A DNA stretch of 64,000 nucleotides from contig NZ_JASBQE010000003.1 in assembly GCF_029960785.1 (NCBI RefSeq), positions 62,001-126,000 of the forward strand, given 5' to 3'. Made by a program: the position numbers and the translations under genes. Positions within the stretch are counted from its first letter, which is position 1. Each line of letters begins with the position of its first letter. The notes under the pieces are model-generated. The model was not told where the DNA came from and made no database searches. It saw only the letters and a list, made by a program, of their open reading frames with translations. This document shows, piece after piece, positions 12,526-37,564 of the stretch. Origin of the DNA: Polyangium sp. 15x6 (GTDB lineage Bacteria; Myxococcota_A; Polyangia; Polyangiales; Polyangiaceae).

Positions 12526-13266
12526 CTAGACGAGCGCCAAAGCGTCCGCGCCCGCCGGAAAGCGGAGTTGACTGGAAACGTCGTTCGCGGCTCTCCACAC
12601 GGCTTCGGCGACGTCCGATGGAGTGGTCACCGCGCGCGGATTCGCGAACCCTGCGAAGATGGGTTCGGCGAACGCGGCGTAGGCCGCGGGAATCAGGTCC
12701 GCGACCGGGATGTCCGTGTTCTGAGCGAAATTCGTGGACGGTCCGTATCCGGGTTCAACGAGCTTGGCGCGCACGTTGAATGCCTGAAGCTCCAGCGCCA
12801 ACGACCCCGTGAAACCTTCGATTGCCATCTTGCTGGCGGTGTAGGCCGACGCGAGCGGCATCGGGGTGAGCGTCACGCTGGAGGTCACGTTCACGACCAC
12901 ACCCGACTTGCGCGAGCGAAACTGCGGGATGACGGCTTGGGTCATCGCCATCACGCCGAACGTGTTCGTCTCGAAGACCTTGCGGACGTGCGACATCGGC
13001 GTCGCCTCGAATGCTCCGACGACGCCGATGCCGGCGTTGTTGACGAGCGCGTCGAGTGGTCCGCTCGCGTCGATTGCGTGTGCAATGCTCGCTGCGCTCG
13101 TTACGTCGAGCGCGATGACGCGCATACGCTCCGAACGCGGAAAGAGATCTTCGCGTGGCGTTCGCATCGTCGCGATCACCCGCCAGCCGCGCTCGTGAAA
13201 GTAGCGCGCCGTCTCGAGCCCGTACCCAGACGAGCAACCCGTGATCAATACAGTTTTCATGCTCAT
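12526..13266 (-). CDS. Short-chain dehydrogenase/reductase (SDR)
   Basis: A 246-residue classical SDR. The cofactor loop is TGCSSGYG (9-16), the structural motif NNAG is at 76-79, and the catalytic residues are Ser near 129, Tyr142 and Lys146 in YTASK. It would interconvert an alcohol and a carbonyl with NAD(P)(H). It sits 67 bp upstream of the aldehyde dehydrogenase on the same strand, so alcohol to aldehyde to acid is a natural reading of the pair. It starts at MSMKTVLITG; a second ATG two codons on is possible. Confidence 0.9.
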   Translation of the reverse strand: MSMKTVLITGCSSGYGLETARYFHERGWRVIATMRTPREDLFPRSERMRVIALDVTSAASIAHAIDASGPLDALVNNAGIGVVGAFEATPMSHVRKVFETNTFGVMAMTQAVIPQFRSRKSGVVVNVTSSVTLTPMPLASAYTASKMAIEGFTGSLALELQAFNVRAKLVEPGYGPSTNFAQNTDIPVADLIPAAYAAFAEPIFAGFANPRAVTTPSDVAEAVWRAANDVSSQLRFPAGADALALV

Positions 13267-13372
13267 GCTCCGTTTCCGACGTGGTTAGAAGTGGACGACC
13301 CATTCGGGTCGCGTTGCGTAGTGCGTCGCGCTGCTGCTCCGTTTCGCCGCTCGCAGCGGTCCGCGAGAACTG

Positions 13373-13693
13373 TCATTCGCGTACGATCCCGCCGACGGGC
13401 AGGACGTCCTGGTAGTGCCCGGCATCGACGAGCAATGGGCCGATCTTGGCGACCAGGGCTTTCGTCTCCTCTCGCGCGAAGTGCTCGGCGTGGGCGTCCC
13501 TCGTCGTCCAGCCCTCCGTCACGTGGATCACGCTCGGGTCGTCGACCGAGCGGAAGACGAGGTAGAGAACGCAGTCCGGATTGCCCGTCGGCGTGCCGCT
13601 TAGGAGGAGATGGATCAGCTCATCCGACTTTCCGTCGCGGGCTCTGATCGTCGCCTGGAAGCCGTGAGTCGCGCTCATTCTGCATTGGGACAT
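13373..13693 (-). CDS. Antibiotic-biosynthesis monooxygenase (ABM/YgiN-like) protein
   Basis: A 106-residue protein of the ferredoxin-like ABM fold, related to quinol monooxygenase YgiN. The typical strands are visible: GFQATIRARDGKSDELIHLL, CVLYLVFRSVDDPSVIHVTE, then GWTTRDAHAEHFA. The His-bearing HVTEGW and AHAEHF segments are the family hallmark. The start is set by AGGAG 8 bp before the ATG at 13693; the open frame runs further upstream without coding character. It heads the leftward SDR/ALDH cluster. These proteins act on quinones or as detoxifying partners; the exact reaction here is unknown. Confidence 0.8.
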   Translation of the reverse strand: MSQCRMSATHGFQATIRARDGKSDELIHLLLSGTPTGNPDCVLYLVFRSVDDPSVIHVTEGWTTRDAHAEHFAREETKALVAKIGPLLVDAGHYQDVLPVGGIVRE

Positions 13694-13793
13694 CTCTGTT
13701 CTCCTTGTCGCTGGGCGAGGGCCCCCGGTCGCGTTCTCGCCATCCCTACGTAAGCCCGACGATCCGACGACCAATAACGCGCAGTCCATTCTT

Positions 13794-13811
13794 CATTCTC
13801 GATCGTCTAGA
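13794..13811 (-). promoter_or_regulatory. Candidate operator CATTCTCGATCGTCTAGA
   Basis: About 100 bp upstream of the monooxygenase start. It matches 15 of 18 positions with CATTCGCGATCGTCCAAA at 17066-17083, about 150 bp upstream of the FixJ-like regulator. Same orientation relative to both leftward genes. Confidence 0.35.
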
Positions 13812-14075
13812 GTGTCGAGCGCGATTCGCCGTCGCGGGCGCGCGGGCGCACCCACGGCTGTCGCGTGCAAGCGATTACCAATGAATCGATCGCGAGCGAT
13901 CCCTGCTCACGATAGACTGCGACGCCGGCGACGATTCGAACGCGCAACACGCGGCTCGCTCGTCGGGAACGACGCTGATTCGTGCCCTTAACCTATAGGC
14001 CGAGGCGCGCCCCTTCCACCCTCTCTTGGTAGGGTTTGGCGCGTCTCGTCGTGCTCGTCGCAGCGCGAGAGGAGC
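13812..14075. other. Intergenic part of the island
   Basis: Together with 13694-13811 this makes a 382-bp gap between the monooxygenase start and the histidine kinase stop. Apart from the two candidate operators annotated separately, I see no gene. It is richer in A and T than the core. Confidence 0.5.
14018..14035. promoter_or_regulatory. 18-bp imperfect inverted repeat, site 1
   Basis: ACCCTCTCTTGGTAGGGT, an inverted repeat with half-site ACCCT/AGGGT. It differs at three positions from the copy at 15809-15826. It lies upstream of the monooxygenase-SDR-ALDH genes and just past the kinase stop. The layout recalls the 16-18 bp inverted repeats bound by FixJ/TodT-family regulators. Confidence 0.45.
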
Positions 14076-15641
14076 TCAGAGGCGAGGCAGGACCAGATGC
14101 ACGGCCATGCCAAACGGCTGCATGGGCTCCGCCCAGATACGGCCTCCGTGGGCCAACACGATCTTGCGCGTGATCGTCAGACCGAAGCCGAGCCCATCCA
14201 CCTTCGTCGTGAACAACGGCTCGAACAGCTTCGCTTGCTGCGCGGGGGAGATCGGATCTCCGACGTCCACGATCGAAACCCGCACTGCGTCACCGTCTAC
14301 CGCGCTGCGAAGCGTGAGGAGTCGCTCGCGACCCGCCACGACTTTGAGCACGTCGATGGCGTTTCGGATGAGATTGAAGATGGCCTGCTGCAACTGCGTG
14401 ACGTCACCGTCGACCTCCGGAACGTCTTCCAGCTCCACCTGCGTTCGAATGCGCGCCCGGTCGAGCTCCACGCGCGTCATGGCCAGCACGTTGCGCAACA
14501 GGTCGTTGATTCGGACTCGGCTCCGTTGAAGGTCGCTGCCCCTCACGAGCGACCTCAGACCGTTCACCACTGCCACGACACGGTGGACGTCCCGGACCGC
14601 GCCTTCCGCGGCTTCTCTCGCCTCGTCGAGCTCCGGAGGCGAGTGGGCGAGCCAGCGCAGGCTGGCCTCGGCACTCGCCGCGATCGCAGTGAGCGGCTGA
14701 TTGATTTCGTGAATGATGGAACCCGCGAGCTCCCCGAGCGACGCTAGACGAAGCGCGTTCTCGAGCTCGGACTGCTGCCGGCGGAGGGCCGCCTCGGTCT
14801 CCCGCCGTTCCGTTACGTCGGTGAGCACGCCGTAGTAGTAGAGGTCGCCGTGGTGATCGCGGTCCACGTCACCCATGCACTGGAGCCGGCGAATCTGCCC
14901 ATCGAGAACGATCCGATACTCGAAGTTCATGGGCAGCAGGTTGGCGACACTCGTGGTGAGCTCGTCCACCGTGCGTTGTCGGTCTTCGGGGATGATCTTC
15001 TCGGCCCACACCTCGAAATCGACCACTGCGAGCGTCGGATCCAGACCGAAGAGCTTGTAGCACTCGAGCGAAGCGAACGACTGCCGCGTGCGAGTGTTGT
15101 ACCGGAAGTCTCCCATCCTCCCGACCTGCTGATGCTTCACGAGCATGCTCGTGGTCTCGCGCAACACGGTCTCGGCATCGAGCCGTGCGCGTCGCTCACG
15201 CTCGAGCATGGCGCCGAGGCGTGCTCTCTCGTGAGCGGCAGCAAATCGTTCGACGAGCGGTAAGAGTGCGGCCATCGTTTCGTTTCCCACCGAACGGCCA
15301 TGCTCGAAAACGATCTGCAACACCCCAATCGGCCCGAGTTGGTGGCGCAGCGGAATCAGTAGCTGCTCACCGATCTCGCCTGCCGTCGCGAGCCGCAGGG
15401 CCTCGCTCCCGTTCCACACGAGCTCGAGGAGCTCACGCGGGAGCTCTCCGTCGACGCGTTCCTTCGCCATCGCGGGTGTCTCGGGCGTTGCGAGGTACAC
15501 CGCCCCGCCGAATGCGTTCGCTTGGTCCAGAGCGCGCTCGAGCAGCTCCTCGGCCAGACGAGCGACTTCCGCTTCGGGTGGCGTCTGAAACTCCGCGAAC
15601 GAACTACGTAGCGCGATACGCTCAAGAATCATGGTCGCCAT
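14076..15641 (-). CDS. Soluble PAS sensor histidine kinase (FixL/NodV-like)
   Basis: 521 residues without TM helices, so cytosolic. A GAF-like region fills about 25-140 (GGAVYLATPETP, IGVLQIVFEHG), a PAS domain about 175-280 (ending GVLTDVTERRETE), HisKA holds the phosphorylated His311 in HEINQPLTAI, and the ATPase domain follows with QQAIFNLIRNAID (N box), LFEPLFTTK (F box) and GLGFGLT (G2). This is the HisKA/HATPase pattern of FixL- and TodS-type kinases. The FixJ/TodT-like regulator at 16308 and the single-domain receiver at 15921 are its likely partners, and the neighbouring oxidation genes the likely targets. Confidence 0.88.
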   Translation of the reverse strand: MATMILERIALRSSFAEFQTPPEAEVARLAEELLERALDQANAFGGAVYLATPETPAMAKERVDGELPRELLELVWNGSEALRLATAGEIGEQLLIPLRHQLGPIGVLQIVFEHGRSVGNETMAALLPLVERFAAAHERARLGAMLERERRARLDAETVLRETTSMLVKHQQVGRMGDFRYNTRTRQSFASLECYKLFGLDPTLAVVDFEVWAEKIIPEDRQRTVDELTTSVANLLPMNFEYRIVLDGQIRRLQCMGDVDRDHHGDLYYYGVLTDVTERRETEAALRRQQSELENALRLASLGELAGSIIHEINQPLTAIAASAEASLRWLAHSPPELDEAREAAEGAVRDVHRVVAVVNGLRSLVRGSDLQRSRVRINDLLRNVLAMTRVELDRARIRTQVELEDVPEVDGDVTQLQQAIFNLIRNAIDVLKVVAGRERLLTLRSAVDGDAVRVSIVDVGDPISPAQQAKLFEPLFTTKVDGLGFGLTITRKIVLAHGGRIWAEPMQPFGMAVHLVLPRL

Positions 15642-15808
15642 CCCTTACTCCCGAGCTGCGCGGGCCGCGCACGGCTCAGCTCCCGACGTGCGCATTCCGG
15701 CGTGCTTCGCCCGCTCCACGAATCGAGCGCCCCCATGCCCGCCAGGAGCTGGCGCGACCGATCGGCGACCTGCACCCGGCCCCGCGAGCTCTGCGGTGCC
15801 GCACCTCG

Positions 15809-15826
15809 ACCCTACCTTGGTGGGGT
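15809..15826. promoter_or_regulatory. 18-bp imperfect inverted repeat, site 2
   Basis: ACCCTACCTTGGTGGGGT, near-perfect dyad ACCC(T)ACC-TT-GGT(G)GGGT, in the 279-bp divergent gap between the histidine kinase and the single-domain receiver. It matches site 1 (14018-14035) at 15 of 18 positions. Confidence 0.5.
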
Positions 15827-15920
15827 GGAGCGGCAGCGACGGATCGGCTAGCCTGCACCAGGTGGTGGCCTCGCACGTACAGCCCGTGCCGGCGTTAGCA
15901 CGCTCGAACGTGAGGAATAC

Positions 15921-16301
15921 GTGCGCGCGTCTGCCCGCGAACTGATTGCCGTCGTCGACGACGATCCCGGAATCCTGAAGTCTCTCAGCAGCCTGTTGAG
16001 ATCCGCCGGCTTCCGCGTCGCGACGTTCGGGAGCGCCGAAGCCTTCCTCGCGAGTGCGGAGCGAGACGAGGCTCGATGCCTGATTCTCGACTTGGAAATG
16101 GCCGGAATGGGCGGGCTCGCGCTTTTGGCGCAGCTTGGAAAGCCACTCACGATTCCGACGGTCGTGCTCACGGCGCGGCAGAACGAAGAACTGCGCACCC
16201 GCGCCCTCGACGCCGGGGCGCACGCCTTCCTGCTGAAGCCGCCCGTGGCGGCCGTGCTCTTCGACACGATCGCCGAGGCGGTCGCGCGCACCGCGCCCTA
16301 G
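15921..16301 (+). CDS. Single-domain response regulator
   Basis: 126 residues forming only a receiver domain: acidic pocket VVDDDP (11-16), phospho-acceptor Asp57 in LILDLEM, Thr in VVLTARQ, and Lys in FLLKPP. There is no output domain. GTG start at 15921, with GAGGA 6-10 bp upstream. Divergent from the histidine kinase and convergent with the FixJ-like regulator, so it is probably a phosphate sink or a modulator in the same phosphorelay. Confidence 0.87.
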   Translation: MRASARELIAVVDDDPGILKSLSSLLRSAGFRVATFGSAEAFLASAERDEARCLILDLEMAGMGGLALLAQLGKPLTIPTVVLTARQNEELRTRALDAGAHAFLLKPPVAAVLFDTIAEAVARTAP

Positions 16302-16307
16302 CGGCAT

Positions 16308-16919
16308 TCAGCGCCCCAGCCGGGCGGACATGCGCACGAGCTCGGCCAGTGACCCCGCCTTCATCTTGCGCATCACGTGACCGCGTTGCTCCTTGACTGT
16401 GAACTCCGCGGTGCCGAACTCCGCCGCGATCTGCTTGTTGAGCAGTCCGTCGACGACACGCGCCATCACTTCGCGCTCACGTGGCGTGAGCGCTTCGTAT
16501 CGCCCACGCAACTCCAAGAGCTCCCGCCGACTGGCGCGTGCTTGCCTGTCCCGCTCGATGGCGGTCGCGACCGCGGCCGCGAGCTCGTCCGCGACGACCG
16601 GCTTGGTCAGAAAATCGTCGGCGCCCGCCTTGATGGCTCGCACCGAGGTCGGAATGTCCCCCCGTCCAGTGAGGAAGACGATGGGGAGCGGTCGATCCTG
16701 CGCCAGGAGCTGACGCTGAAGCTCGAGCCCATCGATGCCGGGTAGTTGCAGGTCCAGCAACAGGCAGGATGCACAATCCTCCAACGTGGCCCTGAGAAAC
16801 TGGTCCGCGTCTTCGAAGAGGGTGACGCGGTACCCGAGAGCACGGAGCAACGTGGAGAGCCCGGCACGGACGCGCGCGTCGTCGTCGACGACGTAGACCG
16901 TCGCGTCGTCTCGACTCAC
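16308..16919 (-). CDS. FixJ/TodT-family response regulator (receiver + LuxR HTH)
   Basis: About 203 residues from a GTG at 16919. The receiver has VVDDDARV and phospho-acceptor Asp56 in [12 protein letters not shown], plus LTGRGD and LTKP. The DNA-binding domain begins [20 protein letters not shown] and ends [18 protein letters not shown], diagnostic of the FixJ/TodT branch of LuxR-type regulators. The open frame extends to 17162 but the added residues look random. No clear ribosome site precedes the GTG. Likely the output of the kinase at 14076, acting on the ACCC-dyad sites nearby; that link is inference. Confidence 0.87.
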
Positions 16920-17065
16920 GTGGCACCGCCGCGGTCGCCCTGGTTGCGCATGCGCTCCCAGTGAAGGTCGGCTTCCCCGAGGCGCGCTCCCCGTAGCGAG
17001 ACGAACGTCATATCCCGAGCCTACCACGACGACGCGACGTCTTCCATCTTCGGTCGTCGATGATC

Positions 17066-17083
17066 CATTCGCGATCGTCCAAA
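17066..17083 (-). promoter_or_regulatory. Candidate operator CATTCGCGATCGTCCAAA
   Basis: About 150 bp upstream of the FixJ-like regulator. 15 of 18 positions agree with the site at 13794-13811 before the monooxygenase gene. Confidence 0.35.
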
Positions 17084-17146
17084 CCAACGGAGACGGTCGC
17101 CGGACCTCAGAGGGACTGGCGCGGTGGCTTGCGCGTGATTGCTGGG

Positions 17147-17296
17147 TACGACCGGCAATCATGTGCGCTCGTGGTGGATGCGTTTGTTCGGGAATTGCAG
17201 CGAAGCTATCGCTGGCGAGCGAAGCGCGCGTTTGGCTTGTCCAGCGTGAAAGAGGCCTTCACGGGCACAGCGACGGTGATTCAGCGGTTCGACTCG
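17147..17296 (+). pseudogene. IS91-type (Y2/ISCR-like) transposase remnant
   Basis: About 50 codons read [20 protein letters not shown] followed by [13 protein letters not shown]. From memory this corresponds to the segment just before the HUH metal motif of IS91-family transposases, where family members continue SALRLNVHFH. Here the homology breaks at FDS, and the next residues (VDVASPRYLAAHP) do not belong. No zinc-binding N-terminus or catalytic tyrosines are visible, so this is a decayed fragment. It lies at the right end of the island. Confidence 0.5.
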
Positions 17297-17661
17297 GTCG
17301 ACGTCGCTTCGCCCCGCTATCTCGCCGCCCACCCGCGCATCAAGGAGCCCGCAGGCCCGCCGATCTCGCCAAGCACCAAATCATTTCGGGCTCGATTCCT
17401 GGGTCTTCACGCCAGCCAAGGGCTCGTCGAAACCCCGCACCGTCCAGTTCGCGCCGCGATTCACTGTCGATCGTCCCCGCCGACGCGGAGCATCCGCCGC
17501 TGCCGGTGCATCTGCTTGCCCCGCAAGGCCGCATGGCGGTGCCCAAGGTCATGGCATCCTTGAAATGTGCTGGTAGCGACCGGGAGCGAAGTCCGCGAGC
17601 TCTACGACCGTCAGCTCGGACGTGATGAGCGACTGAGTAACCTCTCGGGGCCACCCGGTCG
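17297..17661. other. Region without a recognisable gene
   Basis: 365 bp between the transposase remnant and the CxCGCG gene. Several short frames are open but none has family similarity or a ribosome site. Possibly further decayed mobile-element DNA. Confidence 0.4.
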
Positions 17662-18045
17662 TCACTGCCGCGAACGACGATTGCGGTGATCGTGCCCTCG
17701 CAAATACCGCGGAATCCCTACGCCGGGCCGATGATGCCGCGGCAGCACCCGAATCGGCTTCCCGCACCCACAAGCGCATACGCGCCGTCCCTTCGCATTT
17801 TCAGCATCCGCCCAGGCTGTAGACAGATCCGGCTGATGCCACCGGATGAACCGCGGGATCCCCACGCAGTGGTGCCACGGCTTCACCACGACCCGCCCCC
17901 CGCACCCGCAGGCGCACACGTGCCCCTTCGCGTTTTCAGCCTCCGCCCACGCCTCCGCGGCACCTGCGGGCGTCGGTCTTGTTGGCAGATTCACTGTTTC
18001 TTTTAACAGTAGAGGCGGTGTCGTCGTTTGGTGAAAGGTTAACAT
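17662..18045 (-). CDS. Small CxCGCG tandem-repeat protein (putative zinc-binding)
   Basis: 127 residues from the ATG at 18045. Two tandem repeats of about 45 residues: AEAENAKGHVCACGCGG ending GIPRFIRWHQ, then ADAENAKGRRVCACGCGKP ending GIPRYLRGHDHR. Each carries a C-x-C-x-C cluster followed by His residues (WHH, RHH, GHDH), a plausible zinc site. Similar CxCGCG-then-RGH modules occur, to my memory, beside or within HNH endonucleases of phages and mobile elements, but no HNH motif is present here. The start codon lies inside the DNA of the broken four-helix-bundle gene, at the island's right edge. Confidence 0.55.
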   Translation of the reverse strand: MLTFHQTTTPPLLLKETVNLPTRPTPAGAAEAWAEAENAKGHVCACGCGGRVVVKPWHHCVGIPRFIRWHQPDLSTAWADAENAKGRRVCACGCGKPIRVLPRHHRPGVGIPRYLRGHDHRNRRSRQ

Positions 18046-33834: not shown

Positions 33835-34101
33835 GGGCCGACCTCGCCGCTTCGGTGGAGATGCGGAAAGGAAATGTTCAGGAAAATGACGATTCGAAAG
33901 GTTGGGGCCGACATGGCCCTTACCGTCGTATCATTGCCGCGTCCGTTTTCCTTGTCGGGAGGGTCCCGAATCCGGGTGCTCCGTCACACCCGAAGGTTGT
34001 CCGGCGGCCCTGCATCCGTGACGCATGAAACGCCCTCGACGCGGCGCTTCCCTGAACGCTCGGGCCGGGGTAGGGTGCGGGCCTTCCGTGGAGGTCCGCC
34101 C

Positions 34102-35178
34102 ATGAGGTTCGTTGCGCTCGCCGTGGTCACGCTCGCCGTGGCGTGGCCCGTCGTGAGCTACGCCGAAGCCTGAGGCGCTTGAAGCAATCCGAACCTGCCG
34201 GTCGGCGGGTCCGAAGTGCGAGCGTTCGAGCCCGGGAGGCTCGAAGTGCGCCTGGGTGCGTCCGGGCTCGCCGGTTCGGCGGGGCATCTCGCAGAATGCC
34301 CCGACCTCGGGCCCGCGTGCGCCGAGACGCCGCCGCCCGTGCCGTACCACCACCACGTGGCGTTGTGGATGACGGACGTGACGGCGGACGTGTCGTACCA
34401 GGTCACGCCGTGGCTCGCGGCCGAGGCGCGTTTGCTGCTTCGCATCGTGGATACGTTTCCCACGTACACGGAGCTCGACGGCACGCCGAAGCTCGTCCCC
34501 GGCGACATTCACCATCACGATCGGACGATCGTGGGGCCCGGGGATCCGTGGCTCATCGCGCGTTTTTCGGGCGGCATCGGCAAGCTCTCGTCGGCGGCGC
34601 GGCTTGGACTCTCGTTTCCGCTGGGGCGAACGGAGCCGGATCCGTATCGGCTCGGCGCGGCGGGGGAATGGCACGAGCATACACAGCTCGGGACGGGGAC
34701 GTTCGTGCCGATCGTGGGCGTCGGGCTCACGTATGCGCTGGATTCCGTGGAGATCTCGGCCTCGGCGCTGGGGCTCTTCAGTGTGTACGAGAATGACCAG
34801 GGGTTTCGGGCGCCAACCCGCATTTTCGGCGGCGCGCGCGTGGGCGTGCCGCTGCTCGAAGGGAAGGTCACGCCGTATGCGACGGTGGATCTCGCCCACG
34901 AGAGCGCGGAGATCTGGAATGGCGCGTATGCGCTCGAAGGATTCAATGCGCGCACGGATCTGCTCGTCGGCGTGGGCGCCAGGTGGGCGATCACGCCCGC
35001 GTGGACGCTCGAAGGCAGCGTGCGGGCGCGGGTCTTGCGGCTGACGGACGCCGCCGCGTTCAATTATCCGGGAATGGCCCAAATCTCGATTTCACGTGCC
35101 TGGGACCTCGGCGGCAAAGACGAGGATGAGCACGGGCACGAGGACGAGGACGAACACGGGCACGGGCACGGGCACTGA
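34102..35178 (+). CDS. Candidate UxxU selenoprotein: secreted, probably outer-membrane, His-rich protein with two in-frame TGA codons
   Basis: ATG 34102 has GGAGG 7 bp upstream and opens a signal peptide (MRFVALAVVTLAVAWPVVSY, cleaved near AEA). Codons 24 and 27 are TGA (34171-34173 and 34180-34182), in the frame of a long open region that reads SNPNLPVGGSEVRAFEPG and continues to 35178. With Sec at both, the N-terminus is U-G-A-U-SNPNLP, matching the C-x-x-C-SNPNLP start I recall in Cys homologues. A SECIS-like hairpin follows the second TGA. The mature part has HHH clusters (PYHHHVALW, DIHHHDRT), GDPW, beta-strands like an outer-membrane protein, and a His/Asp/Glu tail (HGHEDEDEHGHGHGH) suited to metal binding. 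Initiation at GTG 34216 would lose the signal peptide. Confidence 0.75.
34190..34213 (+). promoter_or_regulatory. SECIS-like hairpin
   Basis: CCTGCC-GGTC-GGCGGG (34194-34209) forms a 6-bp stem (one G-U pair) with apical loop GGTC. An A-T pair, one mismatch and two G-C pairs extend it outward. The loop starts 17 nt after the second TGA. In E. coli fdhF the GGUCU loop starts about 18 nt after its UGA, so spacing and loop sequence both agree with a bacterial selenocysteine insertion element. Confidence 0.7.
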
Positions 35179-35488: not shown

Positions 35489-37564
35489 ATGCAATCCGAG
35501 GGAGGCGGAGCACGCCGCGTCGCGCGTCTCGGGCTCTTGCTGCTCGCGCTCGGCGCGGGGTGCAAGCGAGAGGATCCGCACGCCGAGGCGACGAGCGCCG
35601 CCGATCCGGATCCGCTGCCGGCGCTGCGTGCGTTCGAGGCGGAGCGCAGGGCCGCGACCGATTTCGCGGCCCTGCCGCCGAGCGACGCCGCGTTCGGCGC
35701 CGATCCGTACGCGATCGCCGCGCTTCCGGGGGGTGAACGATTCGTCGCGCTGCTCCGCGGGCGGGACGCGATCGTGGTGCTCGACGCGTCGATGCGGGAG
35801 CTCGCGCGTTTGCCCGCGCCCGCTTCGCCGAGCGGGCTCGCGGTGACGCCCGATGGCCGCAGCGTGTTCGTCGTGGGCGAGCGCGACGCCGGCGTCCGGT
35901 GGTTCGAGATCCAGGAGACCGCGCCGTACCTCGCGCGGAAGGACGACGACCTGGTCACGAGTACGCGGGGGCTGCGGGACGTCGCCGCGGGGCCCGAGGG
36001 GGCGGTGTACGCGGTCGAGGAGGACAAGGGGCGGCTCTTCACGCTCTGGCCCACCGTCCCGAAGACGGTGGGAGAAGATGTGACGATCGGCGGCGGGCCG
36101 ATCCACGTCGAGCGCGTGGGCTCGTTCGTCGTGATCGACGCGCTCCACGCACATGCGCTCGTGATCCGGCCCGTGGACGAGGCAGGTCGCGTCCTGGAAG
36201 CGGGCGAAGCGCGCATCGTCCATGACGGCCCGATCTGGGGTTTTTCCGCGGTGCCCGACGGCGAGGGGCTGTTCGTGCTCGCGGGCGGCGTCGAGGATCG
36301 GCCGCTCGATCGGAAGGGCGGATTCTTCGGCTACATCGACTCGTTCGTCTTCCTGTACCGCGTCGAGCGCGGCGCGGCGCGGCTGCTCTCCGCGGTGAAC
36401 GTGGGCGAGCTCGGCGTGGTGACGCCGAAGGCGCTCGACCTCGCGAAGGCGAAGGACGGCACGCTCGCGGCGCTCGTCACGGGGTACGGCGGCGAGGCAT
36501 CGGCGCGGCTCGTGTTCGACGCGAGCGGGAAAACGCTCGCGATCCCGGCGAAAACGAGCCCCACGGTGCCGGGCATCCGAGACCTCGTGATGCTCCCCGG
36601 AGGCGGGTTCGTCGGGGCGAACCCTCTGCTCGATGCGTTCGTGCTCGTGCGTCCGGACGAACCACGCGAGACGATCGTGCCCGTCGTGGATCGGGGGGGC
36701 CCTGCGCCGCCGAGCGCGGAGGCGCGCCTCGGCGAGGCGCTCTTCTTCACGACGCTGATGGCCCCCGAGAACGGCACGGAGGACGCGCACAGCCGCTTCA
36801 CCTGCGAAACGTGCCACTTCGAGGGCTACGTCGATGGGCGCATCCACCACACGGGCCGCGGCGAGGTGCGTGTCGTGACGAAGCCGCTCGTCGGCCTCTT
36901 CAACAACCGCCCGCATTTCTCGCGCGCGCTCGATCCGGATCTGTCCTCGGTCGCGCACGCCGAATTCCGCGTGGCAGGCGCCGGGAGCGGGCACTCCCCC
37001 TGGTTTTCGCTCGACGCCCGGACGCACCCGGTGCTCGCCGCGCTCGGTCGATCGGAGGCCGAAGTCATCGAGCCGCTCGCGCTTCGCCGCGCACTCATGA
37101 CGTTCCTCATGGGCTTCTCACACCGGCAGAACCCGACGACCGTGAGGCGAACCTCGTTCTCGGAGCTCGAGCACGAGGGGGCGAAGCTCTTCGAGGCGCG
37201 CTGCGAGGGCTGCCACGAGGCGCGGCTCTCGGCCGACGAGAAGGGCAGCCGCGTGCCCTTCGAGCGCTGGGAAAGCCTGATTTTCACGCCCGCGGGGCCG
37301 ATCGTTTGGTGCTCGAACGAATACCAGAAGACGGGCGTCGTCCCGTACGTGCACGAGCGTGGCGCGCGCGTGCCGTCCTTGCGCAGGCTCGGCAAGAAGC
37401 GCCCGTACCTGACGAGCGGCGCGGCGAAGGATCTCGCGGATCTGCTGACACGAGCGAGGTGGGCCGCGGATGGAGGGTTTTTCCACGACGGCGCGCCCGA
37501 GGGCGCGTCGGGGCTCGAAGCGCGCGAGCGCGAGGCGCTGCGGACGTTCCTGGAGCTGCTCTAG
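35489..37564 (+). CDS. Di-heme c-type cytochrome (MauG/cytochrome c peroxidase-like) lipoprotein
   Basis: About 691 residues from ATG 35489 (a GTG 3 bp earlier is possible). Lipobox LGAGC. The first 400 residues look like a beta-propeller (VTPDGRSVFVVGERDAGVRW, VIDALHAHALV). The C-terminal part has two heme c sites, C439-ET-C442-H443 and C572-EG-C575-H576, with a LGEALFFTTLM-like start typical of the CCP/MauG family (RLGEALFF). Such proteins act in the periplasm or at the surface in oxidation chemistry or metal handling. Downstream of the candidate selenoprotein. Its TAG stop shares the tetramer CTAG with the convergent kinase's stop. Confidence 0.85.
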   Translation: MQSEGGGARRVARLGLLLLALGAGCKREDPHAEATSAADPDPLPALRAFEAERRAATDFAALPPSDAAFGADPYAIAALPGGERFVALLRGRDAIVVLDASMRELARLPAPASPSGLAVTPDGRSVFVVGERDAGVRWFEIQETAPYLARKDDDLVTSTRGLRDVAAGPEGAVYAVEEDKGRLFTLWPTVPKTVGEDVTIGGGPIHVERVGSFVVIDALHAHALVIRPVDEAGRVLEAGEARIVHDGPIWGFSAVPDGEGLFVLAGGVEDRPLDRKGGFFGYIDSFVFLYRVERGAARLLSAVNVGELGVVTPKALDLAKAKDGTLAALVTGYGGEASARLVFDASGKTLAIPAKTSPTVPGIRDLVMLPGGGFVGANPLLDAFVLVRPDEPRETIVPVVDRGGPAPPSAEARLGEALFFTTLMAPENGTEDAHSRFTCETCHFEGYVDGRIHHTGRGEVRVVTKPLVGLFNNRPHFSRALDPDLSSVAHAEFRVAGAGSGHSPWFSLDARTHPVLAALGRSEAEVIEPLALRRALMTFLMGFSHRQNPTTVRRTSFSELEHEGAKLFEARCEGCHEARLSADEKGSRVPFERWESLIFTPAGPIVWCSNEYQKTGVVPYVHERGARVPSLRRLGKKRPYLTSGAAKDLADLLTRARWAADGGFFHDGAPEGASGLEAREREALRTFLELL

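Follow-up and report, generated by a model that had tools for sequence, protein, structure and literature searches.

A candidate family of outer-membrane selenoproteins with a U-x-x-U motif and a thioredoxin-domain partner in Myxococcota

We analyzed a stretch of 64 000 nt, hereafter the window, from Polyangium sp. 15x6 (assembly GCF_029960785.1, contig NZ_JASBQE010000003.1, positions 62 001 to 126 000 of the forward strand). The source genome has 13.4 Mb in 275 contigs; the named close relatives appearing in our searches were Polyangium. With TGA read as selenocysteine (Sec, U), the frame 34102-35178 is translated as MRFVALAVVTLAVAWPVVSYAEA-UGAU-SNPNLPVGG and onwards. The DNA between the signal peptide and SNPNLPVGG is TGA-GGC-GCT-TGA, the two TGA codons being nine bases apart (Table 1). 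A preliminary description, made from the letters of the window, had placed a ribosome site, a signal peptide, these four codons and an outer-membrane protein in one frame; we saw the same arrangement, with GGAGG at 34090-34094, ATG at 34102 and the frame open to 35175. It had also predicted that automatic gene calling would begin at GTG 34216, and the mechanical ORF of 320 aa, obtained without readthrough, begins exactly there.

The product of the gene further downstream (35489-37564) is lipoprotein-like and has CxxCH twice, perhaps for haem binding; the Pfam search returned no match for this product at 1e-5. A similar gene adjoins the barrel gene in another genome, G086.

Table 1. Features of the proposed selenoprotein gene (window coordinates)
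Feature	Position	Strand	Basis and remarks
Shine-Dalgarno-like GGAGG	34090..34094	+	7 nt upstream of ATG 34102; sequence
Probable selenoprotein gene, 358 codons and stop TGA (35176-35178), two internal TGA read as Sec	34102..35178	+	Homologue comparison
Likely signal peptide MRFVALAVVTLAVAWPVVSYA	34102..34164	+	Sequence, cleavage site read by eye; relatives start similarly
First probable Sec codon TGA (U24)	34171..34173	+	Column: TGA in 60/74 rows, Cys in 14/74
Second probable Sec codon TGA (U27)	34180..34182	+	Column: TGA in 63/74 rows, Cys in 11/74
Putative SECIS upper hairpin A-CCTGCC-GGTC-GGCGGG-T (core 34194-34209)	34193..34210	+	Comparison, SECIS rule, codon constancy
Predicted outer-membrane beta-barrel, residues 46-335, six conserved His	34237..35106	+	Alignment A3, predicted model, structure match
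C-terminal Asp/Glu/His-rich tail, residues 337-358	35110..35175	+	Sequence; some relatives without conservation

With the window protein as a query, homologues were found in 22 of 108 genomes of Polyangiaceae and in 23 of 183 genomes of the order. A profile made from 24 rows was matched at E <= 1e-5 by 81 of the 377 genomes sampled across the phylum, a count that takes in weak and partial matches. We read the N-termini for the strong matches, i.e. in the 22 Polyangiaceae genomes and in 52 genomes outside the family (>80 bits), 74 genomes in total; weak matches (<80 bits) missing the N-terminal part were left out, as was G227, with a match that had no N-terminus and no locus, and rows repeating other rows (L069-L077, L107) were dropped. 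A scan of genome contigs with the window protein alone returned only three Polyangium records; since the phylum profile search found many more, such a one-protein scan is no measure of spread. The plasmid records searched gave no match.

The start of the protein was readable in 73 genomes: (i) 59 have TGA at both positions; (ii) two have Cys followed by TGA (G159, in two copies, and G426); (iii) 11 have Cys at both; (iv) one, G464, has lost the first residue. Counted as aligned rows (n = 74), these are 60 UxxU (from 59 genomes), three CxxU and 11 CxxC. The preliminary description had expected homologues with C-x-x-C at this place, and every one of the 74 rows carries Cys or Sec at both columns; neither TAA nor TAG occurs at either column in any examined row. 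In alignment A3 (46 rows) the most divergent U row is 24% identical to the window protein. In the 72-row tree, which omits L006 and L140, the well-supported branches require two or more separate changes for CxxC and likewise for CxxU; thus Sec and Cys have replaced each other on more than one occasion. As both TGA codons recur in independent genomes, including three named Polyangium records, an error in a single assembly, a concern raised at the outset, is not their source.

Two barrel relatives, L088 (G464) and L109 (G488), have RATC or QATC before SNP, with the first Cys/Sec missing; they were counted in neither the U nor the C group. G488 carries a UxxU copy besides L109.

The proposal of selenocysteine had been made conditional on a search for selA, selB, selC and selD. 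All of this machinery is present in the source genome, with scores above the curated cut-offs: selA (490 bits), selB (318 bits, joined over its frame), tRNA-Sec (71 bits) and selD (392 bits). The selB match ends 58 nt from the tRNA-Sec. Within Polyangiaceae selA was found in 18 of 18 UxxU genomes, in none of the four CxxC genomes and in 37 of 108 genomes overall. Outside the family 38 of 43 U-form genomes had a selA match (G383 a fragment only), as did one of seven CxxC genomes (G407). The totals were 56 of 61 U-form genomes with a selA match, and 58 of 61 with selA or tRNA-Sec, against one of 11 CxxC genomes. In G159 and G305 tRNA-Sec was found and a selA match was absent; the U-form genomes with neither, G393, G423 and G321, are 87, 77 and 78% complete. 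The genus-mate G089 has kept selA and tRNA-Sec with the barrel gene absent, so the barrel gene is not the sole reason for keeping the machinery.

The hairpin downstream of the motif starts 11 nt past the second TGA; its GGTC loop is 17 nt past the second TGA and 26 nt past the first one. The preliminary description had identified this hairpin and its loop correctly, though not the spacing: it put the hairpin start at 17 nt, which is where the loop lies. By the bSECIS rule, as worded in the legend to Fig. 2 of PMC13188914, the loop should have 3-9 nt with a G in loop positions 1-2 and lie 16-37 nt from the UGA, the upper stem should have 4-16 bp and the MFE should be <= -7.5 kcal/mol. A single hairpin of -11.1 kcal/mol conforms to this rule for both UGAs. 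With the rule as coded here, which scores a perfect hairpin only, both codons passed in 38 of 63 U rows and in none of 11 C rows; the other 25 U rows missed the -7.5 kcal/mol limit in this implementation. The rule is loose: across the window, on both strands, 138 of 1226 TGA triplets pass it, so a SECIS-like hairpin by itself is weak evidence. We found no hairpin of bSECIS type for the terminal TGA at 35176, which fits its use as a stop.

A stem with a score >=5 starting 9-13 nt after the second TGA is present in 59 of 63 U rows versus 13.2 expected under synonymous recoding with each gene's own codons; for C rows the figures are 3 of 11 versus 0.9. The stem sequences vary yet remain paired (CCUGCC/GGCGGG, CCUCCA/UGGAGG, GCUCCA/UGGAGC, CCUUC/GAAGG, CCUUCCC/GGGAAGG), with two-sided changes between relatives, e.g. 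CCUCCA..UGGAGG versus GCUCCA..UGGAGC. Furthermore, when the 47 conserved residues having four or more codons were ranked by codon constancy in the 13 LPVGG-type rows, L32, P33, V34, G35 and G36 took five of the top six places. A search of 401 nt against Rfam gave no match and the fold of 62 nt was not unusual in comparison with shuffles (z -1.36); the RNA argument therefore rests on the comparison between genomes.

The remaining one of these six most constant codons is the GCC preceding the first TGA (34168-34170), seen in 11 of 11 rows with Ala there; perhaps this is a context effect on recoding. The related CxxC rows L093, L095 and L140 have a 5-bp hairpin, GCTGC-loop-GCAGC, at the place of the SECIS, perhaps a relic or a chance occurrence.

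Because of the conservation, the exchange with Cys, the machinery and the RNA constraint we consider it nearly certain, on comparative grounds, that 34102-35178 is an intact gene with Sec encoded at both positions. DNA by itself cannot distinguish Sec from another residue, and the UGAs could be decoded as some other amino acid, by natural suppression or a changed code, with no selenium involved; however, homologues have Cys at these columns and not Trp or Arg, the U form goes together with selenocysteine genes, the hairpin is linked to U rows, and UGA terminates the same gene at 35176, so we rejected this reading as very improbable. A pseudogene or sequencing error, whether as a once intact CxxC gene hit by two nonsense mutations or as a short protein started at GTG 34216, would agree with a frame that is broken unless read through and with the 320-aa ORF, but its probability is practically negligible, given both TGAs in 59 genomes, a frame otherwise open, no TAA or TAG at these sites, an upstream signal peptide kept as protein in distant rows, and the loss of a barrel's export signal that a start at GTG 34216 would entail.

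The gene commonly found ahead of the barrel encodes a lipoprotein-like protein whose C-terminal domain is a thioredoxin (PF00085 above cut-off in all six proteins scanned; WCxPC). In Sec-type loci the N-terminal part of this protein is HMA-like: PF00403 is at the cut-off in L057 and below it in L049 and in the copy of the source genome. In four Polyangiaceae CxxC loci a Cys/His-rich twin motif takes the place of the HMA-like part. The partner was found in all 22 Polyangiaceae genomes with the barrel: adjacent in 14, fused to the barrel C-terminus in three (G039, G014, G013) and unlinked in five, which belong to the Polyangium group. In the source genome it is on another contig (G000:C11:36753-37418, 310 bits). 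Outside Polyangiaceae, 46 of 54 loci have a thioredoxin match, 39 directly upstream and seven fused or directly behind; the match is absent from eight loci, namely both copies in G159 and six more, of which some have short flanks. Fusions of partner and barrel occur in at least eight rows. No gene besides that for the thioredoxin protein recurs widely next to the barrel in the 40 neighbourhood loci. Strong partner matches were also present in seven Polyangiaceae genomes (G099-G104 and G047) where a barrel match is absent. From this comparison of gene neighbourhoods the thioredoxin protein is very probably a partner of the barrel.

An HMA-thioredoxin lipoprotein with no barrel match was seen in L141, L145 and the other genomes of genus code g47. 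In G101, by ORF reading, the partner gene lies between chorismate-binding-like and response-regulator-like genes, as it does in the source genome.

Pfam indicated weak barrel similarity for members of the family. PF13557 matches five of 46 members at E <= 0.01, and one relative, L081, reaches 25.0 bits against a cut-off of 22; the window protein has no match to it at E <= 1. A sequence search of PDB with alignment A3 also had no match at E <= 1. The model predicted from 46 rows has a mean pLDDT of 84.9 and 13 strand segments, in keeping with the 12-stranded barrel of COG4313 channels. Its best structure match is 4RL8 of COG4313 (Z 25.0, rmsd 2.6, 250 residues), followed by FapF (Z 23.0) and by autotransporter barrels at about 20; with FapF so close behind, the fold does not single out COG4313. 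On the strength of the model, an outer-membrane channel fold is very likely. Six histidines, H62, H84, H137, H138, H191 and H193, recur in 90% or more of the 46 rows; predicted strand order would place them at strand ends or between these, all on the side away from the N-terminus. Residues 10-37, with the UxxU among them, have pLDDT under 50 and are the least confident part of the model. In the 4RL8 channel the N-terminal ~14 residues fold into the barrel and occlude the pore, according to the sections of PMC4493636 cited here; by analogy we infer that the UxxU may be located in or at the pore, as part of a plug. Taken jointly, a selenoprotein channel with a thioredoxin partner is a claim that we hold with good, though not full, confidence.

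As for the function, several loci point to metals. In G466, genes for a MerR regulator, MerT-HMA and a P-type ATPase accompany one copy of the barrel-partner pair; the second copy also has a P-type ATPase, here together with HlyD and an RND pump. HlyD and RND genes are within 16 kb of one G159 copy, G407 has HlyD beside an RND-like neighbour, and a MerR gene is near the G039 copy. Fused barrel-thioredoxin forms have His-rich linkers. Still, of the 40 neighbourhood loci few have metal genes next to the barrel, and with so few cases a metal role stays a hypothesis; soft-metal handling at the outer membrane could well be the function and is our best, tentatively held, guess. The preliminary description had called U-x-x-U a redox motif, which is plausible; metal binding is at least as likely.

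In G426 a single protein (L087) combines barrel, thioredoxin and cupredoxin-like domains and has CxxU rather than UxxU.

We propose the following mechanism. SelB acting on the hairpin 34193-34210 would recode both upstream UGAs as selenocysteine, and the product would carry U24-G-A-U27 directly behind the signal peptide. The mature protein would be an outer-membrane channel of COG4313-like fold, with the diselenol/diselenide motif at, or inside, the pore's periplasmic mouth and the six conserved histidines toward the outer side, as predicted strand order suggests. The partner lipoprotein, with its HMA-like CxxC or Cys/His-rich twin motif next to thioredoxin, would reduce U-x-x-U or swap metal with it. 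At the outer membrane, the system would most likely transport a soft metal ion or detoxify it. One could speculate further that a phylum-wide family of channels works as a selenium-based metal gate, in which a diselenol pore plug binds or reduces a soft metal and an HMA-thioredoxin lipoprotein recharges it; this full version is possible, with the odds leaning against it.

The main rival to a metal role is an envelope thiol/selenol-disulfide enzyme with peroxide or disulfide chemistry, to which thioredoxin would pass electrons at U-x-x-U and in which no metal would be transported. A UxxU would make a potent redox pair, the WCxPC thioredoxin is the one neighbour widely shared, and it is fused to the barrel in at least eight rows; the six conserved histidines, the His-rich linkers, the HMA-like or Cys/His-rich domains of the partner and the occasional metal operons, however, point to metal, and we judge the enzyme reading rather unlikely. 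A channel that takes up hydrophobic or aromatic compounds, as other COG4313 proteins do, or a FapF-like secretion of protein, in which UxxU merely seals the plug, would accord with the fold matches (Z 25.0 and Z 23.0), but it leaves two Sec residues, the histidines and the thioredoxin partner unexplained, and sequence identity is about 10%; we consider it improbable.

Handling of selenium or tellurium oxyanions, linking the selenium supply of the cell to the channel, has a similarly low probability. In G013 (L064; G013:C1, about 12647-17839) the fused barrel-thioredoxin gene shares a strand with its neighbours, tRNA-Sec, selA and the gene for a SelB-type factor, and the porin-like ExtI of Geobacter is reported, in the part of PMC5877670 that we cite, to affect selenite and tellurite reduction; yet such linkage to sel genes is seen in one genome only, and CxxC forms occur in genomes that have no selA.

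Judged by the catalogues searched, the family adds a selenoprotein with two Sec residues in a putative outer-membrane channel. It is broad, with 74 genomes of a single phylum matching strongly, and includes natural Cys versions, owing to which the worth of Sec over Cys is directly testable. One SECIS hairpin serving two UGAs nine bases apart would be a testable rule for double recoding. Gene prediction that reads TGA as a stop would remove the signal peptide together with the active motif. If the metal reading is true, there would be a step of soft-metal handling at the outer membrane that is built with selenium.

No model of NCBIfam release 20.0 (June 2026) matches any of 46 members at E <= 0.01, or the window protein at E <= 1. 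The whole of the 119-family Table 1 of PMC13188914 has no fitting entry, and the sections of the deep-Sep paper used here (PMC12013277) have no such family. Literature searches returned no paper on this barrel family, and nothing on selenoprotein, Myxococcota and selenocysteine together. With the proviso that an earlier report may exist, we regard this as a selenoprotein family that is new and unusually built, within the known kind of SECIS-dependent bacterial selenoproteins.

Three inner-membrane families, as we take them to be, invite comparison: the mercuric transport protein PF02411, the E1-E2 ATPase and the SO_0444 Cu/Zn efflux protein. Their folds differ from the outer-membrane barrel of the window. 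They are metal transporters with Sec at Cys positions, and most Sec-containing metal transport proteins are tied to metal or metalloid resistance, in the account given in the cited parts of PMC13188914. Other predicted bacterial outer-membrane Sec proteins in the same account are the GSU2204-type MtrB/PioB barrel (NF041027) and the TonB-dependent receptor FCYXU (NF049945); these have one Sec each, in other motifs, and neither model matched the 46 members. Two Sec in UxxU are likewise described there for Prx-like PF00578, for NF041115 ('putative mercuric reductase', described as metal-binding) and for FmdB TIGR02605; none of the three is named a barrel in those parts of the paper and none matches the window family, the PF00578 match in thioredoxin-fused rows being confined to the thioredoxin domain. 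Closest in predicted fold are the COG4313/PF13557 (Phenol_MetA_deg) channels, e.g. Pput2725 (4RL8), with one relative, L081, above the PF13557 cut-off. At about 10% identity, and with no PF13557 match for the window protein itself, the family differs from these channels by the U/C-x-x-U/C motif, the six histidines and the thioredoxin partner, features that do not figure in the description of COG4313 as excerpted from PMC4493636.
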